The position numbers and the translations under genes were made by a program. Positions 5,209-22,607 of a stretch of DNA of 48,922 nucleotides are shown in pieces (positions within the stretch are counted from its first letter, which is position 1; each line of letters begins with the position of its first letter). The notes beneath the pieces are model-generated. The model saw nothing but the letters and a program-made list of their open reading frames with translations, was not told the DNA's origin and did no database searches. This DNA is from Planctomicrobium piriforme (GTDB taxonomy: Bacteria > Planctomycetota > Planctomycetia > Planctomycetales > Planctomycetaceae): contig CAMATH010000058.1 in NCBI GenBank assembly GCA_945860955.1, positions 1 to 48,922 of the forward strand, read 5' to 3'.

Positions 5209-8200
5209 ATGGTTCGGTGGGGAGCGTTCGCGCTCGTTTGCATTTCGCTGATTCTGGTGGTGGTCACTTTGGGACGACAGCCAGCGCATTCGGACGGAGA
5301 CAACCGCCGCGACGCGCCGGTTCGGTCAACTGAGTCCGGCACACCGAGTCGACCGGCAGTCGCAGATTCAGAACAGGTAGCAACGGCTCCGACCAGCACC
5401 GCCGCGACCACCCCCGCTGAGACGACCACAGACGCGACCTGCGCTCCGCCACCGTCCGGACCGGAATTTCATCCGGATTTAGTCGCCCGGATTGTCGCCG
5501 AGGCAAAGGCTCGGGGCGACGCGATGCGCGGCGCGATGATCTTCGGTTCGGCCCACTTCGCGTGCATCTCGTGTCACAAGGTGGGAGAACAAGGCGGCCA
5601 GGCCGGGCCAATGCTGAGCGACGTCGGCCGTCGGCTGAAGCCCGAACAAGTCGTCGAAGCGCTCTTCTGGCCCAATCGCGAGGTCAAACCCGAATATCGC
5701 GCCTGGATCGCGCAAACTGTCGACGGCAAGAACTACCAGGGCTACAAACAGAGTGAATCGGCCGAGGAAATTGTTCTCCGGGATCCGGCGCAGGGAACGC
5801 TGACCCGCCTGGCGAAAGCCGACATCGAAGAACTGCGGGAATTGGGAACGCTGATGCCCGAGGGACTGACGGCGGCAATGTCGACCACCCAGCGGGGTGA
5901 CATTGTGCGGTTCCTGCTCGAGCTGGGTCACGACGCCTCGCTCACGGGGCTGGTCCGTCCGCAATCACACGAAGCCGCCGAGTTTCCGTACGACAAACTC
6001 CCGTTGGATCCCTCGCGGTGGCCGTTTGTTGGCCACCCCATCAACCGCGATCGCCTGTATGATTTTTACGCCAAAGAGGCTCGGCATTTCGCCGCTCAGT
6101 CGGCGATGCCGGTCCTGCTGCCCGGGTTTCCCGGTCTGGATGGCGGAACGTTTGGCCATTGGGGGAACCAGAACGAGCAGACCTGGGCGAGTGACCGGTG
6201 GAACGCGACCGATCTGGGATCGATGCTGTCCGCCATCTTCCGTGGTCCGGGTGTCACGGTCGCGAAGGGGGTCTGCGTTCGACTGGGAGACGCGGGCGAG
6301 CTGGCAGCCTGTTTCAATCCGCAGAAATTGTCGTATGACGCATTGTGGCGCGAGGGATTCCTGAAATTCTCGACGGTCCGGCACGGCTTCATGGAGGGGG
6401 CCCTGCAAGCGGGAACTCCGCTTCCCCGCCCCTCGCAACCCAGCGTCATGGAACCATTCCAATACCACGGTTTCTATCGTCATGGAAAGCGGGTGGTATT
6501 CGCGTATCGCATCGGAGAGGTCGAATACCTCGACGCTCCGTGGGTCGAAAATGGTCAATTCCAACGGGTTGTCGAACGGGCCGAATCGCATCCCCTCGCG
6601 AACCTGACCAAAGGGGGGCCCGCGCAATGGCCTCAGGTGTTCGACTCGCCCGGTCAGCCAGGCATGGGTGGCCCCTATGTGGTCGATCGCATCCCTCCGC
6701 CATTTGACAATCCCTGGAAATCGCTGATGTTCTTTTCGGGACACGATTTTCTCCCCGATGGAACGGCGTTTGTCTGCACCATGCAGGGAGACGTCTGGCG
6801 GGTGACCGGCCTGGATGAAACGCTGGCCAAGGTTCAGTGGCGACGGTTCGCTTCGGGACTCAATCAACCGTTGGGACTGCAGGTGGTTGATGGTGTGGTT
6901 CACGTTTTGGGGCGCGACCAGCTCACCCGACTGCATGACCTCAATGGGGATGGTGAGGCGGACTTTTACGAGTGTGCGAGCAACGCCTACACGACCTCGA
7001 CCGCCGGCCACGATTTTATCTGCGGACTCGAACGGGACGCCGCCGGGAATTTTTACACCGCGTCGGGAAACCAGGGACTGCTGCGCATCTCTGCGGATGG
7101 AAAGCGGGTCGACGTGATGGCGACTGGTTTCCGTAACCCTGACGGACTCGGAATGCTGGCCGACGGCTCGATCACGATCCCATGTTCGGAAGGGGAATGG
7201 ACCCCCGCCTCGACATTGTGCCAGATCCGCCCTCAGGCGGGTTCCGAGGAATTCGAGCCTCCTCACTTTGGCTATCCCGGTCCGAAGAACGGAAAACGCC
7301 CCACACTTCCCCTGCTTTACCTGCCCCGGGGTCTCGATAACTCGGCCGGCGGTCAAGTCGCCGTTCACAGCGACCGCTGGGGACCACTCGATGGTCTGGC
7401 GGTTCACCTTTCTTTCGGAACGGCATCGCACTTTCTGCTTTTGCGGGATGAAGTCGATGGTCAACCCCAGGGGGCGGTTGTGCCGCTTCCGGGGGAGTTC
7501 TCGTCCGGCGCACATCGTGGTCGGTTCAATCCCCACGACGGGCAGTTGTATGTCACCGGAATGGCTGGCTGGGGTGCGTACAACTCTCTGGAAGGGTGCT
7601 TCGAGCGGGTCCGTTACACTGGTGGAAAAGTCCAGTTGCCGCGCGGGTTTCACGTCCACCAGAATGGCGTTCTGGTTGAGTTCACCGCTCGCATCGACCC
7701 GAAGATCGCCAGTGACGTCACGCGGCAATTCGCGCAGGCGTGGAATTATCGCTACAGCGCCGCCTATGGTTCCGAGGAATACTCGCCCAGTCACCGCGGT
7801 GCGATTGGACATGATCCGTGGGCGATCACGCGGTCGTTCGTCCTCGCCGACGGAAAGCATCTCTTTCTCGAAATCCCCGACTTGCAGCCAGTCAGCCAAT
7901 TGCAACTGCATTTGCGAGTCGACGAAGGGGAACCGATTGACATGTTCCTGACGGTTCATTCACTCGCCGCCCCGTTCACGGCGTTGCCCGGCTACCGTCC
8001 GGTTGAGAAGACCATTGCCGCCCATCCCTTGCTGGTCGATCTGGCGACGCAAACCAAGTCGTTGCCCAATCCCTGGAAAAAGCCGTTGGAAGGGTCGCGG
8101 GAGATCGTGCTGGAAGCGGGCAAGAACCTGACGTTCGCCACCCGCTCGTTGACGGCGGCTCCTGGGGAGACGTTGCAGTTGACGTTCCGCAATCCCGATG

Positions 8201-8475
8201 TTGTGCCCCACAATTTCGTGTTGACCCGCCCCGGTTCACTCGAGCGGGTCGGCCAGTTGGCGAACAAGATCATCTCTTCGCCCGACGCCGCCGCCCGGCA
8301 TTACGTCCCCCCAAGTGACGATGTGCTGGTCTACACCGATATCGTGTCGCCGCACGAGGAATTCTCGATCTACTTCCAGGCCCCGCGAGAGCCTGGCAGG
8401 TACCCGTTTCTCTGCACGTTCCCCGGCCACTGGATGGTGATGAACGGCGTCCTGACCATTGAAGCCCCGCGCTAA
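5209..8475 (+). CDS. Exported cytochrome c / beta-propeller / blue-copper fusion protein
   Basis: This 1088-residue exported protein starts with a hydrophobic signal or anchor (residues 5-21). A cytochrome c module follows, with CISCH at 119-123 and a likely axial Met in LMPEGL (Met216). The middle (about 240-930) resembles large PVC-bacterial proteins: a DUF6797-like part and then a beta-propeller with repeated blade text such as GHDFICGLERDAAGNFYTAS and TGFRNPDGLGMLADG. The last 100 residues are a cupredoxin: His1001 in PHNFVL, then C1069-TFPG-H1074-x3-M1078, the azurin/plastocyanin copper-site spacing. Known relatives of the propeller part are predicted PQQ- or sugar-dehydrogenase-like proteins, but no substrate can be assigned. 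Heme and copper centres in one chain suggest electron transfer in the periplasm or at the membrane. The gene appears to stand alone with its own ribosome site; the next gene begins 114 bases later. Confidence 0.85.
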   Translation: MVRWGAFALVCISLILVVVTLGRQPAHSDGDNRRDAPVRSTESGTPSRPAVADSEQVATAPTSTAATTPAETTTDATCAPPPSGPEFHPDLVARIVAEAKARGDAMRGAMIFGSAHFACISCHKVGEQGGQAGPMLSDVGRRLKPEQVVEALFWPNREVKPEYRAWIAQTVDGKNYQGYKQSESAEEIVLRDPAQGTLTRLAKADIEELRELGTLMPEGLTAAMSTTQRGDIVRFLLELGHDASLTGLVRPQSHEAAEFPYDKLPLDPSRWPFVGHPINRDRLYDFYAKEARHFAAQSAMPVLLPGFPGLDGGTFGHWGNQNEQTWASDRWNATDLGSMLSAIFRGPGVTVAKGVCVRLGDAGELAACFNPQKLSYDALWREGFLKFSTVRHGFMEGALQAGTPLPRPSQPSVMEPFQYHGFYRHGKRVVFAYRIGEVEYLDAPWVENGQFQRVVERAESHPLANLTKGGPAQWPQVFDSPGQPGMGGPYVVDRIPPPFDNPWKSLMFFSGHDFLPDGTAFVCTMQGDVWRVTGLDETLAKVQWRRFASGLNQPLGLQVVDGVVHVLGRDQLTRLHDLNGDGEADFYECASNAYTTSTAGHDFICGLERDAAGNFYTASGNQGLLRISADGKRVDVMATGFRNPDGLGMLADGSITIPCSEGEWTPASTLCQIRPQAGSEEFEPPHFGYPGPKNGKRPTLPLLYLPRGLDNSAGGQVAVHSDRWGPLDGLAVHLSFGTASHFLLLRDEVDGQPQGAVVPLPGEFSSGAHRGRFNPHDGQLYVTGMAGWGAYNSLEGCFERVRYTGGKVQLPRGFHVHQNGVLVEFTARIDPKIASDVTRQFAQAWNYRYSAAYGSEEYSPSHRGAIGHDPWAITRSFVLADGKHLFLEIPDLQPVSQLQLHLRVDEGEPIDMFLTVHSLAAPFTALPGYRPVEKTIAAHPLLVDLATQTKSLPNPWKKPLEGSREIVLEAGKNLTFATRSLTAAPGETLQLTFRNPDVVPHNFVLTRPGSLERVGQLANKIISSPDAAARHYVPPSDDVLVYTDIVSPHEEFSIYFQAPREPGRYPFLCTFPGHWMVMNGVLTIEAPR

Positions 8476-8589
8476 CCACGCCCAGGCGAGCGGGGCGGCG
8501 TCTGCCACCTGTCCCGCCCGACGCAAACAACTCCCCGTTCCCAGTCACACCCCAACCCCCTCTTCACTCTTCACGACGAAATCGCTCGC

Positions 8590-9273
8590 ATGTCAAACCG
8601 ACCCCAAACGTCCCCCGCAACCTCCGGCGGTCTCCCCGCCTGGCTCGTCACCGGCATCCTCGGACTCGCGGTCGGAGCGGCGGGGGGAATGATCGGCCTC
8701 GTGACTTACGGCTACGCACTGCCAGAACCAGACAAAGGTTCGCCCCCCACAATGACCGGAACGCCCATGGTCACTCCGGGTGCCCCCCCCGCGGGGACGG
8801 GTGGCGCCGGAGGGATGGGCCCGGGCGGAGGTGGGATGATGGGTGGCGGCGGCGGGGGCATGATGGGGGGCGGAATGATGGGTGGTGGCGGTGGAGGTGG
8901 CGGAAAGCGGACCTTGACGTCGCTGGTCGGCAAGTTGGAGTTGCTGTCACGTAACGACCTGCCCCTGAAAGTCGAACTCACTCCGGAACAAACCGCCAAA
9001 GTCGCCGAACTGCTGGGGACCATGGAACAGGCGGAAAAGATGACGGGTGACGAGGCGACCGCGTTTCAAAAAACGCTGGAAGAAATTCTCACGAAGGAAC
9101 AGAATGACGTACTCGCTCTCGTCGGACTCCCCTTCGTCCGTCCCGCCGGCGGTGGCGGAATGGGGGGTGCCATGGGGGGCGGAGGAGCGAACCCCGACGA
9201 AAACCCGTTCACGCAGGAAGTCAACCAGAAGCGGTTAAAAGATCTTTTGGACCGGATCAAACCGGCTCAATAG
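8590..9273 (+). CDS. Membrane-anchored Gly/Met-rich protein of unknown function
   Basis: This 227-residue protein has one N-terminal membrane segment (residues about 17-42, WLVTGILGLAVGAAGGMIGL onward). A low-complexity Gly/Met tract follows (about 70-105; repeated GGGMMGGG) encoded by GGN-rich DNA. A compact helical region (about 110-180, TLTSLVGKLELLSRNDLPLKVELTPEQTAKVAELL) comes next, then a second short Gly-rich stretch and a charged tail. The helical part contains the phrase LTPEQ seen in many small planctomycete exported proteins that sense or bind something unknown. It follows the cytochrome/cupredoxin gene by 114 bases on the same strand and could be cotranscribed, but nothing ties it functionally. 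No Shine-Dalgarno is evident. Confidence 0.7.
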   Translation: MSNRPQTSPATSGGLPAWLVTGILGLAVGAAGGMIGLVTYGYALPEPDKGSPPTMTGTPMVTPGAPPAGTGGAGGMGPGGGGMMGGGGGGMMGGGMMGGGGGGGGKRTLTSLVGKLELLSRNDLPLKVELTPEQTAKVAELLGTMEQAEKMTGDEATAFQKTLEEILTKEQNDVLALVGLPFVRPAGGGGMGGAMGGGGANPDENPFTQEVNQKRLKDLLDRIKPAQ

Positions 9274-9763
9274 CCTTTCAGATCGCAGATCCGCTTCGCC
9301 ATCCTCCCTCCAAGCCGCCGGCACAGTTGCCACGTCATTGCAAGTGGGATTGAAGCGGCACACTATTGGCGACCCTTGCCGGCTCGCCCGGCAGGTGAAA
9401 CAGTTAGGCGACTGACACCACCGCTTCGCGCCGTGCGCGTCCCCCGCCACCTTGGGGACTGTCGGTTTTGTAGCTGCGTCGCTCCGGTTGTGGTTCCCGC
9501 GAAGCGAAACCACAACCGGAGCGACGCATACACATGACCGGATCGCTTAAACCCACAGCCCCCTTTTGGGGCGGGTAAACGCGGTCGGCGCGCGGGTGAA
9601 AAAAAATCTGGGTGGCACCCACAGGCGCTTTTGGTACGGCGGTTTCGCGTGGCATCGCGGCGGTCAACGTGCGGGGGCTGCGGGGAAGTGAACGACCATT
9701 GGATGAGCCGCAGGGGGCGACGCTCCCGCGGATCTGTTGAACCCGTTTGATGAAGTACACTCG
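9274..9763. other. 490-base intergenic region with strong hairpin and repeat-like sequence
   Basis: No gene is supported here. The stretch holds a 20-bp perfect inverted repeat (see 9476-9527), a 40-base segment at 9447-9486 with a partner at 32421-32460, and a short hairpin at 9610-9622 (TGGGTG-G-CACCCA) after an A8 run. It probably contains the transcription end of the upstream gene and the promoter of the DUF2961 gene, neither of which I can place. Confidence 0.5.
9476..9527. repeat. Perfect 20-bp inverted repeat with 12-base loop
   Basis: The left arm is 9476-9495 and the right arm 9508-9527; they are exact reverse complements, and the loop is CCCGCGAAGCGA. The stem would be very stable as RNA or cruciform DNA. 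There is no T-run on either side, so a classical intrinsic terminator is unlikely. The left arm overlaps a 40-base segment (9447-9486) that recurs at 80% identity at 32421-32460, so the hairpin may be part of a dispersed repeat family. Confidence 0.75.
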
Positions 9764-11347
9764 ATGACAACTCACAAGCAGCCTCTGCTTCTACTGTGCG
9801 GACTAATTCTGTGTTCAGTTCTCAATTCGATGGGGTTGTTTTCCCAGGCGCAACCACCGATTGAGACAACCGCACCATCTCGCTCCCGGTTGGATTCGCA
9901 TGATGCGGACGCGGCGTCGCTCGGAGATCCATTTCCCCGGACATATGCGGATCCGGCAGTGCCATTGCTGCAGTTGCCAACGCGATTTCGTTCACGTCGA
10001 ACGACCGCCAACATCACAACAAACCCCGGCAAGTCCTTCGAAGTCCTGAATGCGAAAGGTCCAGGATGCCTACGGCATTTGTGGTTCGTGTTCGGCGAAC
10101 AGGATATTGAAGACCTTGAGATCGAAATTACGGTGGATGGCGCTCCGCAGCCACAGGTGAGGATGCCCTTTCGGTCGTTCTTTGGAGTGCTGCTGGGCTT
10201 TAATGACTATCACGTCGCGAGTTCCGGAATCGCGAATTTTCCGAATTTCACCGTGACAAGCGATCCGTTGATTCCACCCAAAGCCCCACCGGGCTGGAAT
10301 CTCCATCTGCCGATTCCGTTTTCAACGAGCTGCCTGATTCGACTGCATTGCAATTCCACGAAAAATGGGGCCGCGATGATAGACTGGCAGGAGTATCGCG
10401 CAAACGTCGATTTGACCCCGCTCCGTTTCCATGCGCAACGGAATATTTCCCTGCCGGCGTCGACTGCACGCCCGTTTCCGATTTTGGAAACCGAGGGTGT
10501 CGGATTCCTCGCTGGATACTTCATGGGCTGGCGCCAGAAAGATCATGGTGACATGGTGTTTCATAACAGCGGCACCCGCATATTGATTGATGGCGAGACG
10601 GATCCGCATGTGATCTGTGGCTGCAATGTTGAAGATGATTTCGGATTCTCCTGGGGATTCAACCAGTATCAGACGCAATGGATGGGATGCCCCTATCGTG
10701 ACAACCGGGGTCGGAATGATCAGGACGGAGTCTTTTACCGTTTCTTTGGTCCCGATCCGATCATGTTTCGATCATCTTTGCTGTTTACCTCGAACGCCCG
10801 TCCCGACGACTACGAGGCGGTATCGTACTTCTACAGGGTGCCCGAGTCGAAAGCCGCGATTGTGAACTCCCCGGCCGAGTGGATCGCCGTGGGTTTGTTT
10901 GGCGACGGTGCCAGCAGCGACGCATTCAAGCTACCTGCCGACGAATTAATTCAACAACTCTCTCAGCCCACACTTGGCGACACCATCAAAGCCGGATCGA
11001 CTGTTTATCCGCTGCACCGACTAAAAAGTGACCACGGTTGGGTACGCCTGGAACACGCAATACAGCATCGGCCAGCGTATCCACCGACGGATCATTCCTA
11101 CTACGTGCGAACGGTTTTGCACAGTGACACTGATCGGAAAGCGACGTTGCGACTGGCATTCGATGACTGGGCGATCGTCTGGCTCAATGGATCACCCGTC
11201 GCCACGCTGGACCACTCGGCCGGATTTGAAACGGCGACAATTCCCGTGACATTGAGGAAGGGTGAGAATCCGTTGGTGATCAAGTCGAACAATCGCCAAA
11301 ACAGCGATCGGTTGATCTGGGTTCTCAATTGCCGCGTGGACAATTGA
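9764..11347 (+). CDS. Exported DUF2961 (GH172-like) protein
   Basis: This 527-residue secreted protein has an N-terminal signal peptide (MTTHKQPLLLLCGLILCSVL, cleavage probably near residue 30). The DUF2961 core includes GPGCLRHLWFVFG, the EITVDG region, MPFRSFFGVLLGFN and, near residue 290, GCNVEDDFGFSWGFNQ with GCPY. This pattern matches the family that contains GH172 difructose dianhydride/arabinofuranan hydrolases. The C-terminal 130 residues look like a beta-sandwich accessory domain (FDDWAIVWLNGSPVATLDH), probably carbohydrate binding. The ATG at 9764 is preferred over one 9 codons upstream because the signal peptide begins there. Codon use is visibly more AT-tolerant than in neighbours (for example GAATTAATT near 10945). 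The glycan substrate is unknown. The following gene starts 25 bases after the stop. Confidence 0.82.
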   Translation: MTTHKQPLLLLCGLILCSVLNSMGLFSQAQPPIETTAPSRSRLDSHDADAASLGDPFPRTYADPAVPLLQLPTRFRSRRTTANITTNPGKSFEVLNAKGPGCLRHLWFVFGEQDIEDLEIEITVDGAPQPQVRMPFRSFFGVLLGFNDYHVASSGIANFPNFTVTSDPLIPPKAPPGWNLHLPIPFSTSCLIRLHCNSTKNGAAMIDWQEYRANVDLTPLRFHAQRNISLPASTARPFPILETEGVGFLAGYFMGWRQKDHGDMVFHNSGTRILIDGETDPHVICGCNVEDDFGFSWGFNQYQTQWMGCPYRDNRGRNDQDGVFYRFFGPDPIMFRSSLLFTSNARPDDYEAVSYFYRVPESKAAIVNSPAEWIAVGLFGDGASSDAFKLPADELIQQLSQPTLGDTIKAGSTVYPLHRLKSDHGWVRLEHAIQHRPAYPPTDHSYYVRTVLHSDTDRKATLRLAFDDWAIVWLNGSPVATLDHSAGFETATIPVTLRKGENPLVIKSNNRQNSDRLIWVLNCRVDN

Positions 11348-12773: not shown

Positions 12774-15125
12774 CTATTCAATCGCGTTCGGCATCGGCGG
12801 CCCGTCGCGCCCCAGTGCCTTGCGCACAGCCTCCACCGGGAGCGCCAGGCGAAATCCGAACAGGTGATAACTCGAGTATTTCTCAGAAGGAAACCGGCTG
12901 GCAGAGCGGTGGAACAGCGGTTGATCAAAGAAGTTCCCTCCCTTAAGGAGTCCGCGTCCCTCGAACGAAGTCTCACAAACCGGGTCGACGGCGATCTTGT
13001 CACGATACTGCTCATAGTGGCTCCGATTCCAATCATCATAAACCCACTCCCAGATGTTGCCGTGCATGTCGTAGAGTCCAAACGGGTTGCATGGCAGCTC
13101 TCCCACCGGGTGCGGGCTCCCTCCGGAGTTGCTGCCGTGCCAGGCAATGTCTCCAAAGGCTAAAACCTGATTGCCGCTCCAGTATTTGGTCTCCGTACCG
13201 GCGCGGCAGGCGAATTCCCATTCCGCTTCCGTGGGAAGTCGATACTGTTTCGCCTGGTCCGCGCCGCTGATTCGATTCAATTCCGCACAGAACCCCGAGG
13301 CCAATTCCCAAGTCACATCATCGACCGGGAACCGTTTGGTTTCCTCCAGGCGGTCGGCGATAAACTGCTTGAAGTCGCCGGTTTCCGAGTAGTCGGACGG
13401 ATTGTCCTTGATGACTTGAACGAACTGACTTTGAGTCACCTCGTGAATCCCCAGATAGAATGGCTTTGTCAGAACGACCCGGTGTCTGGGGGACTCGCTT
13501 TGGATTCCGTCCACACGATATGGTTCTTCTTTAAACTCCCTAAGCCACTGGTCCACATCTTCCTGTGAACTCCCTCTGTCGAATTCGCCCGGGGGAATCA
13601 GCGCGAACTTCATCCCCAGACTGTTTTCGAACTCCAAGGGAACGTTCAAATACTTGGCCCAGGCTTCCTGGTGGGCTTTCGCCTGTAGAGTTGAGAACGG
13701 GGCGATTGCGGGGGCGGGGGCGTCGAGGGGCCAGTTGTACCAGGCGGACGAATGAGTGGCTGGCGGGGCGGGTTCCACTGGTGCGGCGGATTCAGGGAGC
13801 TGATGCTCCCCGCTCGCCTGCCGCGAGCGGATCTGGTTGTAAAGGGAGATCAGTCCCAACACCAGCGCGATGGCGCTGGCCGCCGCGACCAGCCACTCTT
13901 TGCGATGGGAGGTTGCCGGGGGCGGGTTGGGGGTTGGGACCGGCACCGGTTGCCGGGGTTTGTACGCCGGCAGGACTTCGGTCACCGTCCCCGTCGATTT
14001 CCATTCCGCTTCACAACGCTCAAAGAGTTCCGCCACTTCCCGCGCCGACTGATACCGCTGAGTGCGTTCTTTCGCGTGCAGTTTTTCGACAATCACCTCA
14101 AGCCATTCCGGAATGTCCGACAGCACCTCGCGGAGCCGCCTGGGTTGTTCCTCCACAACACGGCGCAACACCCCGACCAGGTTGGGAGCGCGAAATGGCG
14201 GGCGGCCACTGCCGGCCGTGTACAGTACGCTGCCAAAACTGAAGAGGTCGGACCGCAGGTCGAGGCTGTCGCCGGTCGCCTGCTCGGGAGACATGTACAT
14301 GGGTGTCCCCGCGACCACCCCCGATTGAGAAAGGGAGGCGTCGTCGGCGGTTCGGGCCAGCCCGAAGTCGGTGATCTTGACCCGCGGCTCCGAGCCATTT
14401 TCCAGCAGAATGTTCCCGGGCTTGATGTCGCGATGGATCAGCCCCAGCGCATGGGCCGCCGCGATCCCGCGGGCGGTCTGCACTGCGATTTTCAGGATCT
14501 CGGGAATCTCCAGGGGACCGTTTTCGTTGAGCCGTTGCTGCAACGTCGGCCCCTCGATGTACTCCATCACCAGATACGGGATCGGCTGGTCGTCAACGCT
14601 GTATACCTGGACGACGTTTTCATGGCGCACCCGGGCGGCGGCGCGGGCCTCCCGCAGAAATCGCTTGCGCGGAGGAGACGTCAGCGCCATCTGAGGGTCG
14701 ATCACCTTGATGGCGACCAGGCGTTCCAGTTTCTCATCGAACGCTTTGAAGACAATTCCGAACGATCCCCGACCCAGGACCGACTGAATGTCATAATGCC
14801 CGAGTTTCCCCAGCGAGCCGGGGTTGGGAGAGGGAAGGAGGAAGCTGAGCTCCGTGGAGTTGGGGATCTCGTGGTCACTGTCGGTGTCGGGGGCGGCCCC
14901 CAGGTTTTGCACGCAGGTTTCTTCCGTCGCCTCGGGAGCGGCCGGGTCGAGCCGTTCAACGGCGGGAACGGCCAGAAACGAGCCGGCACCGAAGTGGGCG
15001 GCGAGCAGCGATTCCAGCCGATTCCGCAGCGCGACGTTGTCGCCACACGCCCGCAACAGAAACGAACGACGTGACCCTGGATTGTTGATATCCAGTGCCG
15101 ATTCGAAGATCTCGCGTTCCGTCAT
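12774..15125 (-). CDS. Receptor-like Ser/Thr protein kinase with C-terminal SUMF1-like domain
   Basis: This 783-residue eukaryotic-like kinase starts with a short planctomycete-type module (MTEREIFESALDINNPGSRR). The kinase domain follows with GRGSFG (118-123), VAIK (Lys140), HRDIKPGN (231-238), DFG (253-255) and SPEQ. A single membrane helix at about 410-431 places the kinase in the cytoplasm and the C-terminus outside it. The exported part (about 500-778) is a SUMF1/FGE-sulfatase fold: LGMKFALIPPGEF, YRLPTEAEWEFACRAGTE, NPFGLYDMHGNIWEWV, LKGGNF and FGFRLALPVE. Both cysteines of the formylglycine-generating pair, expected after the GGxF/Y motif, are absent, so it is more likely a binding domain. 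ATG 15125 overlaps the preceding stop as ATGA. The 31-codon upstream extension is rejected because the paralogue starts with the same MxEREIFE text. Confidence 0.9.
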   Translation of the reverse strand: MTEREIFESALDINNPGSRRSFLLRACGDNVALRNRLESLLAAHFGAGSFLAVPAVERLDPAAPEATEETCVQNLGAAPDTDSDHEIPNSTELSFLLPSPNPGSLGKLGHYDIQSVLGRGSFGIVFKAFDEKLERLVAIKVIDPQMALTSPPRKRFLREARAAARVRHENVVQVYSVDDQPIPYLVMEYIEGPTLQQRLNENGPLEIPEILKIAVQTARGIAAAHALGLIHRDIKPGNILLENGSEPRVKITDFGLARTADDASLSQSGVVAGTPMYMSPEQATGDSLDLRSDLFSFGSVLYTAGSGRPPFRAPNLVGVLRRVVEEQPRRLREVLSDIPEWLEVIVEKLHAKERTQRYQSAREVAELFERCEAEWKSTGTVTEVLPAYKPRQPVPVPTPNPPPATSHRKEWLVAAASAIALVLGLISLYNQIRSRQASGEHQLPESAAPVEPAPPATHSSAWYNWPLDAPAPAIAPFSTLQAKAHQEAWAKYLNVPLEFENSLGMKFALIPPGEFDRGSSQEDVDQWLREFKEEPYRVDGIQSESPRHRVVLTKPFYLGIHEVTQSQFVQVIKDNPSDYSETGDFKQFIADRLEETKRFPVDDVTWELASGFCAELNRISGADQAKQYRLPTEAEWEFACRAGTETKYWSGNQVLAFGDIAWHGSNSGGSPHPVGELPCNPFGLYDMHGNIWEWVYDDWNRSHYEQYRDKIAVDPVCETSFEGRGLLKGGNFFDQPLFHRSASRFPSEKYSSYHLFGFRLALPVEAVRKALGRDGPPMPNAIE

Positions 15126-18100
15126 TGTGGCTGACTCCTGAGTCGACGCACACCTTCGATTGGGAGAACGACGCGAAACCCCCAATGGCGATTCGCATGG
15201 TTTTCGTACATCGCCCACCGAAACGACGACTGCAAGATCGCGAGTTCGTCAAAATAGCCACCCCCACGCACATTATGGACCCGGTGACGAAAGTCCGTCC
15301 CCTGCGGATTGATCGCGGGGTAATCGCCGTACCAGGAGTAATCCCAGGCGTTTTCACCATCCTGAGTGAACTCCCACACATTCCCATGCATGTCAAACAG
15401 CCCGAAGGGATTTGCGGGACGCGATCCCACCGGTGCCGGTCCCTCGCGTTCGTCTCGCCTTACGACCGCGATCGCATCCAGACTCGATGGGTCATCACCG
15501 GACCAGAATCGAGTGGTGGTTCCAGCTCGGCACGCGAACTCCCATTCCGCTTCGGTCGGGAGGCGATATCCATCTGAACCCTCAGTCGCCTCGATCTTCC
15601 CTCCCATGACAAGGTACTTGGGTGTCAATCGCTCACTGCGGCTGAGTTTTTCACAGAATTCCGCTCCCTGAATCCAGCGGATCGACGCCACGGGACGGTT
15701 CGCCGATTTGGCGGCTGGCGGACGATCGACGCTCTCCCCATCGAACATCGATGGAATGTTCCCCATGATTCCGGTGTATTGCCCTTGTGTCGTTTCATGA
15801 ACCGCGAGGTAGAAAGGCCGGGTCAGGACGGCGGCGTGACGCGGCATTGTCCGCGTCAAGTGTTGAAGCACTTCTCCGTTTCCCTTTGCGAGTTCGATCA
15901 AGTCAGCCGATTCTTCGAGTACAGATCCCATCGCAAATTCGCCGGGGTGGATCAGCCGGAATTTCATCCCCAGGTTGTTTTCGAATTCGACAGGAAGATC
16001 TAGGTACTCCGCCCATGCGGCCTGCGCCTGTCGTGCGCGATCGGCGTCGAAGGGCGCGACCGCCGGCTGGGGGGCGTCGGCGGGCCAGCCATACCAGCTT
16101 CCTTCCTTCGGATCGGGAAAGTCGGCGTAGATCCGGCATTTGGGAAGGGCCGATCGCAGCTCAACGACAGCCTCCGCAGTCACCCCCGGACAACCGCGGA
16201 GGTCCAAAATCTCCAGCGATTTCGCGTTGGCGAGCGACTTCCAGCCATCTTCAGTGAATGTCGACCGGGAGATGTTCAGAACTCTCAATTTGGGTTGTGC
16301 CGCGAGATTCGCACAGGCTTCCAGATCCAGCACGATCCCTGGAATTGCCAAGTGCGCGAGTTCGGGAAGATTGAGGTCCCCCGACGCCGCGGACAATCTG
16401 GACACGGGAAATTCGCACACCTGCATCAACTTCAAGCGGTTGAGATTCGCTACCACGCGCGTCGTGAGACGATTCAGTCGGCCCGTCAGCTTGAAATTTA
16501 CCAAAGTTTTTTGCACCGCAGATTTCGCGAGAGTCGCGATTCCCTGATCGGTGATCTGGGGAAACTCGCCGGTTCTTGAAGTCACCGTCAAGGTTCTCAG
16601 TTTGCGAATCTCCTCGAATCGCTGAAAATCATTATCTGTCAGCAATTCGCCCGATCCAATTTCGATCGATTCGACGATTGGCTTCCCCTCGGGAATCTCT
16701 GCCGCGCGTGTGATTGGAACTGCAACTCCCAGCAACGTCACGCTGCGCGGTTCCGGCAGCGAGAGTACCCATTCCGCCAAGGCGCGATTCGGATCCTTGG
16801 ACGAAGACTCACCTGGACTCTGCTTCGCGAGGAGAACCCGCGCTCCTTCAACGGGCAATGCGAGTCGGAATCCGATGTAGTGCTGGCCCAGGTAATGTGT
16901 CATCAGCCAGCGATTCGCGGACCGGGCCTGCAGCGGTTTCGAATTCCAGAATCCACCCTTCACCAGCCGCTGGTCCGTTTTGGGGTCCATTTCCTCGGGA
17001 TCAAGGATTGGCATTTTTCCCGTGTAATCGGAAAGTCCGGATCCAAACGTGTCTTGTACCAATTCCACAAGGCTGCCGTGCATGTCATACAGACCAAAGG
17101 GATTGGAAACGCTCCGGTCAGGGGGAGGAGGCGAATCCCCCGGCGGACAATCCAGTACTTCCGCTTTGAGAAGCTCCTGGGGATCGTCTCCCGTCCACCA
17201 TTTGGTCACGGTTCCCGCGCGGCAGGCGAATTCCCATTGCGCTCCCGTCGGTAACTGGTAGCCGTTTCCGGGAGTGGGTCGTTTCAAATCCCCGTCTTTG
17301 ACATAACGGTGATCCAGTCCCCACGTTTCATTGAGCGCGTCGCAAACGGTGGTCGCATCCTCCCAGGAGACCCAATTCAGGGGAAGTTTCCCACCTGTCA
17401 GTTCACCCTCTTCGACTCGAACTGAGCGCCCCAGTTGCTCCTGTGTCATCTCGTGAACCGCGAGATAAAACGGCTTTGTCAAAATGACCGGGGTCTGCGG
17501 CCCCTCGGTATCAAGCAAGCCCAGTCGTTTCGGCTCATTTGGTTCAAACGCGCGTGCCTCGGCGATCTCCTCTTCCGTGGCTCCCATCCGGAATTCACCC
17601 GGCGGGATGAGTCGAAATACTATCCCTGCCGAGTCCTGGAACTCGACTGGAAGATTGAGGTATTTGGCCCAGGCAATTTGGTGCGCCTCTGCCTGGTCGG
17701 CGTCGAACGGGGCGATCGCCGGAGGTGGGGCGTCGGGACTCACTTCGCCAGTACCGGGCTGTGGGGGGCGGTGAGTGGCAATCCAGCCGATCGCCGCGAC
17801 CAGAGCCAACACGGCGGCCGCTCCCCATCCCCAGGTTTTCACAGAGGGATGTTTGGCCGAAGTGGTGTTGGCAACCGATGGACCCGGCTTCACGGGGATC
17901 TTGACGCAGGTCACCCCCTCTGGCGTTTTCAGTTCGGCTTCACAGCGCGTCAGCACGTCGGCCAACTCCGCCGCCGACGGGTAACGCGCCGCCGGATCCT
18001 TCGCGTGCAGTTTCTCGACAATCGCCTGAAACCACTCGGGAATATCCGCCAGGATATCGCGCAGCGGACGGGGCCGATCGTCGGCGACCCGGCGAAGGAC

Positions 18101-19054
18101 CGCCACCACCGATGAGGCGCGAAACGGCGGTCGGCCTGAGGCAATCGTGTACATCACGCTTCCCAGGCTGAACAGGTCGGATCGATGGTCAATCGTTCCG
18201 CCGGTCGCCTGTTCGGGAGACATGTACATCGGCGTTCCGGAAACGACCCCGGTCCGTGTCAGGCTGGCATCGTCAGCCGCCCGCGCGAGGCCAAAGTCGG
18301 TAATCTTCACCCGCTGCGCAAGATCGCTTTCAATCAGGATGTTGCCCGGCTTGATGTCGCGATGGATCAACCCTTGCGCATGGGCGGCGGCCAGCCCCAA
18401 TGTCGCTTGCCGGGCGATACTCAGCACCTCTGTCATCTCGAGCGGACCGGAATCGTTGACCCGCTGCTGCAGCGTGGGACCAACGATCAACTCCATCACC
18501 AGGTGCGGGTGCGGGAGTTCTTCGACGCTATACACCTGCACGACGTTTTCATGTCGAACGGCTCCCGCCGCCCGTGCTTCGCGCAGAAACCGCTTGCGGG
18601 GGGGACTCGTCGCGGCCATTTGCGGGTTGATGACCTTGATGGCGACCAGTCGATTCAGCTTTTCGTCGAACGCTTTGAAAACGATTCCGAAACTCCCCTG
18701 CCCGAGTATTTCGAGAATGTCATAGTGCCCCAGTTTTCCGATCGCACCAGCCCGGCTCGGTGCCCCGAGAAAACCGAGATCGAGGGTATTGTCCCCCTCT
18801 AGTTCGCTCTCAGTACCGGAAAGGTTCCCCCCTGCGTGGACAAACGTCTCTTCAGAATTGGTATGGGGAATGCCGTCAAGTGCCTGATCGACCGGGGTCT
18901 CCAGAAATGAACCGGCGTCGCCGTGAGCGGCGAGCAAACCTTCAATTCGGGCCTTTAGCTTTTCGTCCCCCCCACACGCCCGGGCGAGAAATGTCTGCCG
19001 GGAACTGGGGTTGGCGATGTCCAGCGCCGCTTCAAAGATCTCTCGTTCATGCAT
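15122..19054 (-). CDS. Receptor-like Ser/Thr kinase with SUMF1-LRR-like-SUMF1 exported region
   Basis: This 1310-residue paralogue of the downstream kinase has the same N-terminal module (MHEREIFEAALDIANPSSRQ) and the kinase motifs GQGSFG (118-123), Lys140, HRDIKPGN (231-238) and DFG (253-255) at identical positions. A membrane helix is at about 408-426. Outside lie a first SUMF1-like domain (about 470-740), a leucine-rich-repeat-like stretch (about 780-975; PKLRVLNISRSTF, KSLEILDLRGCPGVT) and a second SUMF1-like domain (about 1015-1305). Neither SUMF1 domain has the catalytic cysteine pair (VKGGFWNSKPLQARSANRW; VRGGGYFDELAILQSSFRW). The linker phrase APFDADxA...AWAxYL precedes each one. ATG 19054 is chosen by alignment with the paralogue; the 87-codon upstream extension is low-quality text. 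The sulfatase stop is 353 bases upstream on the same strand. Confidence 0.9.
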   Translation of the reverse strand: MHEREIFEAALDIANPSSRQTFLARACGGDEKLKARIEGLLAAHGDAGSFLETPVDQALDGIPHTNSEETFVHAGGNLSGTESELEGDNTLDLGFLGAPSRAGAIGKLGHYDILEILGQGSFGIVFKAFDEKLNRLVAIKVINPQMAATSPPRKRFLREARAAGAVRHENVVQVYSVEELPHPHLVMELIVGPTLQQRVNDSGPLEMTEVLSIARQATLGLAAAHAQGLIHRDIKPGNILIESDLAQRVKITDFGLARAADDASLTRTGVVSGTPMYMSPEQATGGTIDHRSDLFSLGSVMYTIASGRPPFRASSVVAVLRRVADDRPRPLRDILADIPEWFQAIVEKLHAKDPAARYPSAAELADVLTRCEAELKTPEGVTCVKIPVKPGPSVANTTSAKHPSVKTWGWGAAAVLALVAAIGWIATHRPPQPGTGEVSPDAPPPAIAPFDADQAEAHQIAWAKYLNLPVEFQDSAGIVFRLIPPGEFRMGATEEEIAEARAFEPNEPKRLGLLDTEGPQTPVILTKPFYLAVHEMTQEQLGRSVRVEEGELTGGKLPLNWVSWEDATTVCDALNETWGLDHRYVKDGDLKRPTPGNGYQLPTGAQWEFACRAGTVTKWWTGDDPQELLKAEVLDCPPGDSPPPPDRSVSNPFGLYDMHGSLVELVQDTFGSGLSDYTGKMPILDPEEMDPKTDQRLVKGGFWNSKPLQARSANRWLMTHYLGQHYIGFRLALPVEGARVLLAKQSPGESSSKDPNRALAEWVLSLPEPRSVTLLGVAVPITRAAEIPEGKPIVESIEIGSGELLTDNDFQRFEEIRKLRTLTVTSRTGEFPQITDQGIATLAKSAVQKTLVNFKLTGRLNRLTTRVVANLNRLKLMQVCEFPVSRLSAASGDLNLPELAHLAIPGIVLDLEACANLAAQPKLRVLNISRSTFTEDGWKSLANAKSLEILDLRGCPGVTAEAVVELRSALPKCRIYADFPDPKEGSWYGWPADAPQPAVAPFDADRARQAQAAWAEYLDLPVEFENNLGMKFRLIHPGEFAMGSVLEESADLIELAKGNGEVLQHLTRTMPRHAAVLTRPFYLAVHETTQGQYTGIMGNIPSMFDGESVDRPPAAKSANRPVASIRWIQGAEFCEKLSRSERLTPKYLVMGGKIEATEGSDGYRLPTEAEWEFACRAGTTTRFWSGDDPSSLDAIAVVRRDEREGPAPVGSRPANPFGLFDMHGNVWEFTQDGENAWDYSWYGDYPAINPQGTDFRHRVHNVRGGGYFDELAILQSSFRWAMYENHANRHWGFRVVLPIEGVRRLRSQPQ

Positions 19055-19407
19055 GATATTTGCGACGACCTCGGATCGCAGCCGATGTGGACAATGATCA
19101 ATCTCCACATCCAATGCGACGTGGAATCGAATTCGCGCCACGATTGTCGCAGTTTTTTTGAAAAATCGACTGAAAACCGAAGTCAAAGTGGATAATTGCA
19201 CACAGGCACGCCGCACGCGTGTCCACATCCCGGTGGATACGACATCGACTCGGCTCCAGAGGAATTCGCTGCGGCGTTTTACTCGGCCAAGTAGAGATTC
19301 ATTTCCAAGTTGCAACGCCGCGACCCTGCCCCTAGGGACAGGGCGAGGGCGACGAATGTCCGGGCGGTCGACACGTTGTCGACCGCTCGGATTCCGCAGC
19401 GTGGACG
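19055..19407. other. Intergenic region between arylsulfatase and kinase genes
   Basis: This 353-base stretch should contain the end of the sulfatase transcript and the promoter or ribosome site of the kinase pair. It holds a 9-bp perfect hairpin at 19364-19386 and an imperfect one around 19324-19342 (CCCTGCCCC / GGGACAGGG, one mismatch). An A/T-rich patch lies at 19150-19165. No gene is supported; the open frame running into the kinase has no coding character. Confidence 0.5.
19364..19386 (-). terminator. Hairpin 22 bases past the arylsulfatase stop
   Basis: The arms 19364-19372 (GCGGTCGAC) and 19378-19386 (GTCGACCGC) flank the loop ACGTT. The position just after the minus-strand sulfatase stop (19408) fits a transcript-end structure. 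No T-run follows, so termination is an inference; RNA protection is equally possible. Confidence 0.4.
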
Positions 19408-21165
19408 CTACTTATTGGGAGATTCCTGCAGGCTCTTCAGGATATCATCCAGATTGAAACTGGCTGCCTTCTGGCGTTGCGGGTATTCCCGGAACGTCAT
19501 CAGGAATTGTCCGACGTAGTCTTGGGCCGGCACCAGCAAAAACGCGTGGTCCAGCAACCAGTCGTAGTAGGTGTTCGACGTCACGTCGGCCCGTTCGTAC
19601 GGATCGAGTCGCAGGTTGAAAATCTTCGGAATCCGCAATGCCACAAAGGGCTCGGCCCAGATCCGCAACGTTCCCGGTGTTCGCTGTTCCATGAAGACCA
19701 GCTTCCAGTTTTCGTACCGCAGAGCGGTCAACTGCTGGTCATCGTTGCAGTACAGGAACGATTCCCGGGGACTCTTGTCGGTTTGTCCCGTGAGGTACGG
19801 AACCATGTTGTAACCGTCGAGATGCACTTTGTAACTGGCGTCACCAATCTTCGCTCCCGTGAGCAACCGTTCTTTCACGGTCGTGTCGCCAGCGATCGCC
19901 GCCAGTGTTGGGAGCCAGTCGTGATGTCCGATCAACTGATTCGAGACGCTCCCCGGCTTGATCTTGCCAGGCCAACGGACCATGCACGGAACCCGGTAGG
20001 CTCCTTCCCAGTTCGAGTTTTTCTCGTTGCGGAACGGTGTCATCGCCGAGTCGGGCCACGAATTCAGGTGCGGTCCATTATCGGTTGAGTACATCACAAA
20101 CGTGTTGTCGGCGACGCCCGCGTCATCCAGCGCTTTGAGAACCGTTCCCACGTTTTTGTCGTGGTCGATCATCGCGTCGGCATAGTCGCTCATTGAGGGG
20201 CCGGCCTGTCCTTTACTTTCCGGCTTCACGTGCGTGCGGAAGTGCATGTGAGTGAAGTTCACCCACACAAAGAACGGCTTGCCGGCCTTGACTTGACGCT
20301 GAATGAACTCGGCCGAGCGGCTGGCAATGTCGTCGTCGACGGTTTCCATCCGCTTCTTGTTCAGCGGACCGGTGTCCTTGATCACCTGCTTGCCGACCTT
20401 GCCAAACCGCGGTTCCACGGTCGCGTCGTCCTTATTGCTCGCCTTGGAGTCGAGAACGCCGCGAGGACCGTATTTCGCATGGAATCCTGGATCTTTCGGG
20501 TAGTCGGGGAGTTCCGGCTCCTCTTCGGCATTCAGGTGATAGAGATTGCCGTAGAATTCGTCGAACCCGTGAACCGTCGGCAGGAATTCGTTGCGATCAC
20601 CGAGGTGATTCTTGCCGAATTGTCCGGTCGCATAGCCCAGCGGTTTCAGCACTTCGGCGATCGTCGGATCTTCTTTTCGCAAGCCGAGGGCGGCTCCCGG
20701 GAGACCGACTTTGGTCAGGCCGGTGCGCAGTCCGTGCTGGCCGGTGATGAACGACGCGCGACCCGCGGTGCAGCTTTGCTCAGCGTAGTAGTCGGTGAAG
20801 ATCATCCCCTCTTTCGCGACCCGATCGATATTCGGCGTTTGATACCCCATCAGTCCCATGGTGTAGGCGCTGATGTTTGACTGGCCGACATCGTCGCCCC
20901 AGATGATGCAGATGTTGGGCTTTTTGCCTTCCTTCTGGGCGATGGCGGCGACATGCAGATTGTGGGCGGCGAGCGCCTGCAATTCGGCCTGGCTGGCGGG
21001 GCCGCAGTTCTCTTCGTTTTCGGCAGGTTGCGCGGTGGGGGTTTCGCGGAGCGGGGTCGCAGTATCGGCGCTGGTCGGGACGGCGAACCGTCCCGAAGCC
21101 GAAGCCCAACCCAAAATCGCCCCCAGGGCGAGGATGGCGACGGACTTGAACTGGAAGTGTTTCAT
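19408..21165 (-). CDS. Arylsulfatase, Cys-type, exported
   Basis: This 585-residue secreted sulfatase (signal VAILALGAILGWASASG) cleaves sulfate esters, probably from sulfated polysaccharides, though the substrate is unknown. The metal ligands are seen as GDDVG (Asp91-Asp92) and STDNGP (Asp-Asn). The active-site signature is C132-T-A-G-R136 within YYAEQSCTAGRASFITGQ, a variant of CxPxR, so Cys132 must be converted to formylglycine by a separate enzyme. GKNHLGD carries the usual Lys and His. The C-terminal extension (FREYPQRQKAASFNLDDIL) is common among long bacterial arylsulfatases. It is the first gene of a minus-strand block followed by two kinases with SUMF1-like domains. The start at 21165 is followed directly by the signal peptide. 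The upstream region is shared with the divergent LysR gene. Confidence 0.93.
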   Translation of the reverse strand: MKHFQFKSVAILALGAILGWASASGRFAVPTSADTATPLRETPTAQPAENEENCGPASQAELQALAAHNLHVAAIAQKEGKKPNICIIWGDDVGQSNISAYTMGLMGYQTPNIDRVAKEGMIFTDYYAEQSCTAGRASFITGQHGLRTGLTKVGLPGAALGLRKEDPTIAEVLKPLGYATGQFGKNHLGDRNEFLPTVHGFDEFYGNLYHLNAEEEPELPDYPKDPGFHAKYGPRGVLDSKASNKDDATVEPRFGKVGKQVIKDTGPLNKKRMETVDDDIASRSAEFIQRQVKAGKPFFVWVNFTHMHFRTHVKPESKGQAGPSMSDYADAMIDHDKNVGTVLKALDDAGVADNTFVMYSTDNGPHLNSWPDSAMTPFRNEKNSNWEGAYRVPCMVRWPGKIKPGSVSNQLIGHHDWLPTLAAIAGDTTVKERLLTGAKIGDASYKVHLDGYNMVPYLTGQTDKSPRESFLYCNDDQQLTALRYENWKLVFMEQRTPGTLRIWAEPFVALRIPKIFNLRLDPYERADVTSNTYYDWLLDHAFLLVPAQDYVGQFLMTFREYPQRQKAASFNLDDILKSLQESPNK

Positions 21166-21524: not shown

Positions 21525-22607
21525 ATGCAGTTGCGATTCGTGGAGATTTTCTGTGCGGTGGTCGAGGAGCGCAGCTTCTCGAAGGGGGCTCGTGCGCACA
21601 ATGTGACGCAATCTTCCGCAAGTCAGACGGTCTCAAATCTGGAACGGCAGTTGGGTGCGCAGTTGATCGACCGTTCCCAGCGGCCTCTCGAGCTGACCCC
21701 GGCTGGCAAAATCTACTACGACGGCTGCCGCCAGCTTCTCGCGGAATACCGGTCGATTGAAGACCGCGTGCGAGGGGTGAATAGTCGGGTGATTGGGCCG
21801 GTGCGGGTCGCCGCCATCTACTCGGTGGGCCTCCTGCAGATGGAACGGTTTATCCGTCGGTTCGAAGAGCAATACCCGGATGTCGTGCTGCGGCTGGAGT
21901 ATCTGCAGCCGAACCAGGTGTACGAACAGGTTCTGTCGGATCAGGCGGATTTGGGGCTGGTGTCGTACGCTCGGGCGCGAGGCGATTTGGGACGCATCGC
22001 CTGGCAGGAACAGCCGATGGCGCTGGTCGTTTCTCCCGCGCATCGTTTGGCGAGCGCGAAGAGTGTGCTGCCGGCGCAGTTGGAGGGAGAAGCGTTTGTG
22101 GCCTTCACCACCGAATTGCCAATCCGTCGTGAGATCGACAAGTGGTTGCGAAAACACAAGGTCGCTGTCGATCTGGCGCACGAGTTTGACAATATCGAGA
22201 CAATAAAAAAGGCGGTGGAGTGCGGTTCGGGAGTCGCCATTCTGCCACAGCCGACCGTCTGGCAGGAAGTCGCCTCGGGTGCGCTGGTCGCCATTCCACT
22301 GTCGGGGGAGTCGCTGACCCGCCCCCTGGGAATCATTCACAAAAAGAATCGTCATCTCTCGGCTGCGGTCCGCAAGTTTGAAGAATTGCTGCGACTGGAG
22401 CTGGGGACCGGCACCGTGACCATTCCCGAGTCGGGCGGTCCCCATGCGACGGATCCTCACATGACGGATCCTCACTTGAATGGCCCCCACTTAACCGGGG
22501 GGCCAGGCCAACCGTCCGGCCCCGTCGCCGCTTCTTTGGATGCTGCGTCCGGAGGGGCGGCGAATGCCCTGCCGGGCCGGCGTCCCACCCGCAGAAAACG
22601 GGTGTAA
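21525..22607 (+). CDS. LysR-family transcriptional regulator with His-rich repeat tail
   Basis: This 360-residue regulator has an N-terminal winged HTH (residues 1-60; [20 protein letters not shown], then [18 protein letters not shown]) and a substrate-binding-like effector domain (about 88-295; [28 protein letters not shown]). That length is usual for LysR proteins up to about residue 300. The extra about 60 residues contain a 5-residue repeat, [20 protein letters not shown] (from His307), then a Gly/Ala stretch and a basic end (RRPTRRKRV). The repeat is encoded by a 15-base tandem. The gene lies 158 bases upstream of gltB on the same strand, which suggests control of glutamate synthase, as GltC does in Bacillus, though the arrangement differs there. 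It may also control the divergent sulfatase. Dyads at 21433-21492 are likely autoregulatory sites. Confidence 0.9.

Follow-up and report, generated by a model that had tools for sequence, protein, structure and literature searches.

Two overlapping planctomycete genes for putative receptor kinases with cysteine-less FGE-like domains, adjacent to an arylsulfatase gene

Among the domains fused to kinases in planctomycetes, those of the sulfatase-modifying-factor-1 type are reported to rank third in abundance, to be present in almost all species and to be mostly periplasmic (PMC11032199). Many bacterial proteins with a domain of the formylglycine-generating enzyme (FGE) type are described as devoid of catalytic residues and as carrying extensions, including kinases (PMC5915273), and the related FGS domains, which adopt a C-type lectin fold, are treated as interactors and as targets of diversity-generating retroelements (DGRs) (PMC7159879). 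SUMF2 is presented as an inactive antagonist of FGE (PMC13199485).

We analysed a window of 48,922 nucleotides from Planctomicrobium piriforme, corresponding to contig C58 of an 8.4-Mb genome, in which two kinase genes of this kind are located next to a sulfatase gene. FGE-type periplasmic domains on planctomycete kinases have already been described, and the pair in the window is an ordinary member of this class. It shares with the SUMF1-type kinases of Planctomycetota (PMC11032199) the kinase, the single membrane helix and the FGE-type ectodomain, and differs from them by a translational overlap and by one member with two domains and an LRR-like insert, with nothing categorically different. 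The FGE fold, a frequent lack of catalytic residues and N-terminal extensions that include kinases also characterize the OCTIN superfamily (PMC5915273) and FGS domains (PMC7159879); in contrast to these proteins, nothing in the window pair points to disulfide-linked assembly or a conflict-system context. The reading that we favour, with a probability of roughly 0.7, is that of coupled receptor kinases with binding ectodomains that lack the cysteine pair, accompanied by a sulfatase that is a chance neighbour.

Gene layout of the window

The sulfatase gene (19408..21165, minus strand) encodes a Cys-type S1 sulfatase of 585 amino acids, recognized by Pfam (PF00884) and by its C132-TAGR motif, whose nearest solved chain is the arylsulfatase 7aj0. 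A divergent LysR-type regulator identified by Pfam (21525..22607, plus strand) lies upstream of it, and this LysR-sulfatase pairing is also kept in a congener (loci L066 and L126). The two Ser/Thr kinase genes follow on the minus strand. The first (15122..19054) encodes a putative receptor kinase with two FGE-like ectodomains, 2a (16844..17620) and 2b (15152..15958), and a middle part that resembles LRRs on visual inspection; this assignment comes from Pfam and from the congener counterpart in locus L106. The second (12774..15125), assigned from Pfam and motif reading, encodes a putative receptor kinase with a single FGE-like ectodomain, hereafter domain 1 (12828..13610). The three domains, each with a tail devoid of cysteines, are supported by alignment and by matches to solved structures.

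Pfam detected a Pkinase domain and one FGE-sulfatase stretch in the protein of the open frame 12774-15218 (814 aa), and a Pkinase domain and two such stretches in that of the open frame 15122-19315 (1397 aa), the FGE-sulfatase domain scoring above the curated cut-off of the model (PF03781). These results confirm, in both coordinates and domains, the original prediction of a Cys-type sulfatase followed by two kinases with three FGE-type domains. The first kinase probably starts at the ATG at 19054 rather than at the TTG at 19315, since both kinases then begin with M(T/H)EREIFE and since the homology with the congener ends near 19182.

The ATG of the second kinase overlaps the stop codon of the first (ATGA), and the corresponding genes of the congener overlap by one base; the kinase pair is therefore a unit kept in both species, and the two genes, both for receptor-type Ser/Thr kinases, would be translationally coupled. 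The sulfatase gene is separated from the first kinase by a gap of 353 nt that contains, directly 3' of the sulfatase stop codon, a strong hairpin (19360..19390, minus strand; folding energy -34.8 kcal/mol, z -4.4), whose stem is also present in the congener contig (L126). This hairpin has no T run and is absent from the list produced by a terminator scan, which requires one; it is possible that it marks the end of the sulfatase transcript.

The missing cysteine pair and the relatives of the FGE-like domains

The stretches between the GG motif and GFR read GGNFFDQPLFHRSASRFPSEKYSSYHLFGFR, GGFWNSKPLQARSANRWLMTHYLGQHYIGFR and GGGYFDELAILQSSFRWAMYENHANRHWGFR in the three window domains. None of them contains a cysteine, in agreement with the original prediction that the Cys pair after the GG motif would be missing; FGEs of related loci carry this pair in tails such as GGSFLCNDSYC or similar. 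The other fold motifs quoted in that prediction are present in general, with two deviations, one domain having PTGAQWEFACRAG and one NPFGLFDMHG. Alignment with FGEs also revealed that the window domains have only a much shorter, unalignable stretch in place of the long segment that precedes the conserved core in true FGEs.

The search for a separate true FGE, suggested at the outset, was successful: among 61 FGE-domain matches in the same genome, two are full FGEs with the Cys pair, located on contigs other than that of the window (C113 and C128). The Cys-pair pattern was flagged in 4 of the 61 matches, the two others being C8:17932-18666, where the cysteines are out of register, and a fragment at the edge of contig C221, which has both cysteines in register and is otherwise lectin-like; some matches are partial and have no readable tail (e.g., C70:138-644 and others on C6 and C205). 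The absence of the Cys pair thus seems to be mostly the rule among the FGE-type domains of this genome, kinase-fused ones included, and the tempting label of "sulfatase-modifying" domain applies here to proteins that mostly have no activating site.

The window domains have the fold motifs and PF03781 in common with FGE/SUMF1, as represented by the copies on C113 and C128, and differ from them by the absence of the Cys pair, by the shortened pre-core segment and by their placement in a separate clade. In a quick tree of 51 sequences, which took in 40 of the 61 own-genome matches and in which several long branches were flagged (domain 2a among them), the three window domains form one clade (SH-aLRT 97) outside a clade of 13 Cys-pair FGEs (99). 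Because the Cys pair is absent, the pre-core FGE segment is short and unalignable, and separate Cys-pair FGEs exist elsewhere in the genome, it is very unlikely that the three window domains are sulfatase activators. The sulfatase itself would be a Cys-type arylsulfatase of the ordinary kind, whose maturation depends on a true FGE from another locus.

Comparison with solved structures also points away from true FGEs. For domains 1 and 2b, the best match is the Treponema variable protein TvpA, and true FGEs score lower; for domain 2a, it is PorK, and no true FGE matches at E<=1e-3. The AlphaFold models are poor (mean pLDDT of 66 for domain 2b and 63 for domain 1), with values below 50 in the tail, so that the Cys site is not placeable; a Foldseek search with the 2b model again returned TvpA first, at a TM score of 0.60 that is weak owing to model quality.

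These matches bear on several other functions that may be considered for the domains. By analogy with SUMF2, domains devoid of the Cys pair could influence sulfatase maturation by binding either the true FGE or sulfatases that are still unmatured, a scheme with an animal precedent in pFGE, which is described as having no active site and as antagonizing FGE (PMC13199485). This appears highly improbable here: for domains 1 and 2b, human SUMF2 (1y4j) ranks below TvpA, PvdO and PorK, and it does not match domain 2a at all, the window domains fall outside the Cys-FGE clade, and no recurrence with sulfatases was found in 80 sulfatase-relative loci (the best of 450) and 18 FGE-kinase loci. We give even less credence to the idea that retired FGE domains have kept their affinity for the sulfatase signature peptide in its unmodified form and report the level of unmatured periplasmic sulfatase; if true, such binding would be a direct link from sulfatase maturation to signalling. 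The domains might instead catalyse another reaction that does not need the Cys pair, as do PvdO or EgtB-type relatives: among solved structures, PvdO comes second for domain 1, and the EgtB and OvoA models match, but at scores below their cut-offs. Fusion to a kinase would argue for signalling, and we regard this hypothesis as very doubtful. Rather unlikely, finally, is a structural or oligomerization module that clusters the kinases in the manner of PorK rings and OCTIN assemblies. Each of the three domains has PorK chains among its best matches, and OCTIN is described as an assembly protein with an FGE domain lacking the cysteines (PMC5915273), but two tandem copies and fast divergence would fit ligand binding better.

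Neighbourhoods of the sulfatase and of the kinases

The original prediction went further and suggested that the ectodomains may be sensors for the sulfatase, its substrate or its product; in this reading, contact with the adjoining enzyme, the sulfated substrate or the product would be signalled to the inside of the cell. This proposal is in line with the adjacency of the sulfatase and the kinases on the same strand, but the 353-nt gap and its strong hairpin part the genes, and they are apart in the congener (genome G002), where the kinase pair is located on contig C181 and the LysR-sulfatase pair on contig C1058, with different neighbours. Both stretches are about 89-94% identical to the window at the DNA level, and the homology breaks between about 19182 and 19361. 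This break in gene order comes from one congener of about 1340 contigs, and a misassembly in either genome is possible. A gene that we take, from its reading, to be a 2-hydroxyacid dehydrogenase is present beside the kinase pair of the congener, and its counterpart in the P. piriforme genome sits on contig C87.

Relatives of the sulfatase were examined in the best 80 of 450 confirmed matches. No kinase was found within 1.5 kb downstream in any of the 70 relatives with at least 1.5 kb of downstream sequence. The flanks of the 80 relatives contain 12 kinase matches in 1.13 Mb (10.6 per Mb), which is about the background of the P. piriforme genome, without excess: 91 kinase open frames in 8.4 Mb (10.8 per Mb), or 94 (11.2 per Mb) with three short kinase frames left out of this list. 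The flanks were searched for kinases with both window kinases as tblastn queries, and the background was determined with Pfam, so that the two densities are only roughly comparable.

From the kinase side, we considered 20 loci of linker-FGE proteins from other genomes, hand-picked from 49 linker matches (5 in the own genome; 15 of the 44 others left out). No sulfatase match is present near the related FGE-kinases in the 18 loci that encode them (13.6-19.5 kb per locus). The two remaining loci have no kinase match, and a sulfatase lies about 3 and 6 kb away. Among the 13 own contigs with FGE-kinases, a PF00884 match is present only on C58 (150 of 166 candidates scored; some contigs are short).

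A conserved sulfatase-kinase-kinase module, whose recurrence in relatives had been suggested as a check, was rejected, the genes being non-adjacent in the congener and the arrangement being found in 0/70 and 0/18 of the relatives. Since non-recurrence, designated beforehand as the refuting result, was obtained from both sides, the tie between the domains and the sulfatase is unsupported, and sensing of the sulfatase, its substrate or its product seems quite improbable. The sulfatase beside the kinase unit is probably a chance neighbour, its position corresponding to a lineage-specific accident, and no functional pair should be read from such proximity without further evidence.

A weak lean in the opposite direction comes from three paralogous sulfatases of the P. 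piriforme genome (C211, C75 and C30; 52-61% identical), each with a kinase in its vicinity, at distances of about 4.4, 8.8 and 5.2 kb, respectively. At about 11 kinases per Mb, such proximity is expected for roughly one sulfatase in five, so that these three neighbours, picked post hoc, exceed the background expectation; none of the kinases has an FGE domain. In addition, two of the 80 loci of sulfatase relatives are of note: L146 includes an FGE-kinase on the opposite strand, at a distance of about 5 kb, and L149 includes, 7.4 kb downstream, a kinase with 59% identity to the second kinase of the window.

A Cys-pair FGE is present in the locus of 20 of the best 80 of 450 sulfatase relatives, in 12 cases upstream on the same strand and within 1.5 kb. 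In the P. piriforme genome, the FGE of this kind that is nearest in the tree, on C113, is unlinked, with no sulfatase match on its contig (150 of 166 candidates scored). An apparently decayed FGE is located directly upstream of one sulfatase relative (L129, 9695-9946). The sulfatase relatives (L126-L205), 66-96% identical, come from records labelled Planctomycetota, Alphaproteobacteria, Acidobacteria, Verrucomicrobia, Desulfobacteraceae and others, some of them named isolates (e.g., Bradyrhizobium), a spread that suggests wide transfer or some mixed bins. On contig C9 of the P. piriforme genome (L102), an FGE-like protein lacking the Cys pair (7464-8861, plus strand) adjoins or overlaps a PF00884 protein (8773-10335, plus strand). 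We did not retain this pair as support for a sulfatase link: by eye, SWTVPSSM replaces the Cys motif, and the C9 protein probably needs no formylglycine.

Kinase architecture and related loci in the genome

The kinase motifs LGxGSFG, VAIK, HRDIKPGN, DFG and SPEQ are intact, and a hydropathy scan detected a single hydrophobic helix between the kinase and the FGE ectodomain. In the comparison of the first kinase with its G002 counterpart, a single pairwise estimate, dN/dS is 0.03 for the kinase domain, 0.17 and 0.20 for the FGE domains and 0.38 for the middle part, in which no Pfam match was found despite its LRR-like appearance; the ectodomain values are thus 5-12 times that of the kinase domain. 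The same estimate gives 0.05 for the second kinase domain and 0.07 for the sulfatase.

Because the kinase motifs are intact, one membrane helix is present and the ectodomain of the first kinase evolves faster, the likeliest reading is that the FGE-like domains are sensors; they are probably ligand-binding receptor domains. The original proposal of sensors rather than activators is supported in its negative half, given the missing Cys pair and the separate FGEs, and its positive half fits the protein layout and the faster ectodomain. Fast evolution of the outer part is what a receptor with a variable exterior would show, short of proof of sensing, and makes FGE-domain kinases a reasonable target for ligand screens. 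Judging from hydropathy, each protein would consist of an intracellular kinase, one membrane helix and periplasmic domains with the FGE/C-type lectin fold; the ectodomains, devoid of the formylglycine-generating site, would serve as a binding scaffold, and binding of an outside ligand would alter the kinase activity inside.

Such fusions are not confined to the window. The genome contains 15 kinase open frames with an FGE domain, on 13 contigs, the shared linker was found in 20 of the 59 genomes searched (own included), and 18 of the 20 linker-FGE proteins fetched from other genomes are kinase-FGE fusions. The GG-to-GFR tail is readable in 10 of these 18 FGE-kinases, none of which has the Cys pair. 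In the congener, the second kinase (L106, G002:C181 1-174) has a stop codon immediately ahead of the FGE domain, close to the contig end, and the sequence between this stop and the contig end is unlike the window. Since the congener copy ends at this point, the ectodomain of the second kinase may be dispensable.

The match to TvpA relates domains 1 and 2b to DGR variable proteins; in contrast to such proteins, domains 2a and 2b have tails that are little changed relative to the congener. A textbook DGR is present on contig C49 (L107), with a reverse transcriptase (RT) gene carrying a YMDD motif (7898-8977, minus strand) placed between repeats (7066-7195, 9631-9760 and 10582-10711, minus strand) that lie inside FGE/lectin-fold genes. 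All 34 differences of two repeat copies from the third fall at adenines of the third copy. The window kinases were rejected as targets of this element, as the C49 repeat, the only template compared, has no match in the window. A second RT gene with YMDD (L110, C141 171-1271, plus strand) is located beside a fragment of an FGE-fold tail (C141:1265-1390), whose translation recurs at C143:12-128, and may possibly belong to a second DGR. Finally, contig C8 carries, between about 4.2 and 27.3 kb, eight FGE-like domain matches, which are spread over several minus-strand open frames.
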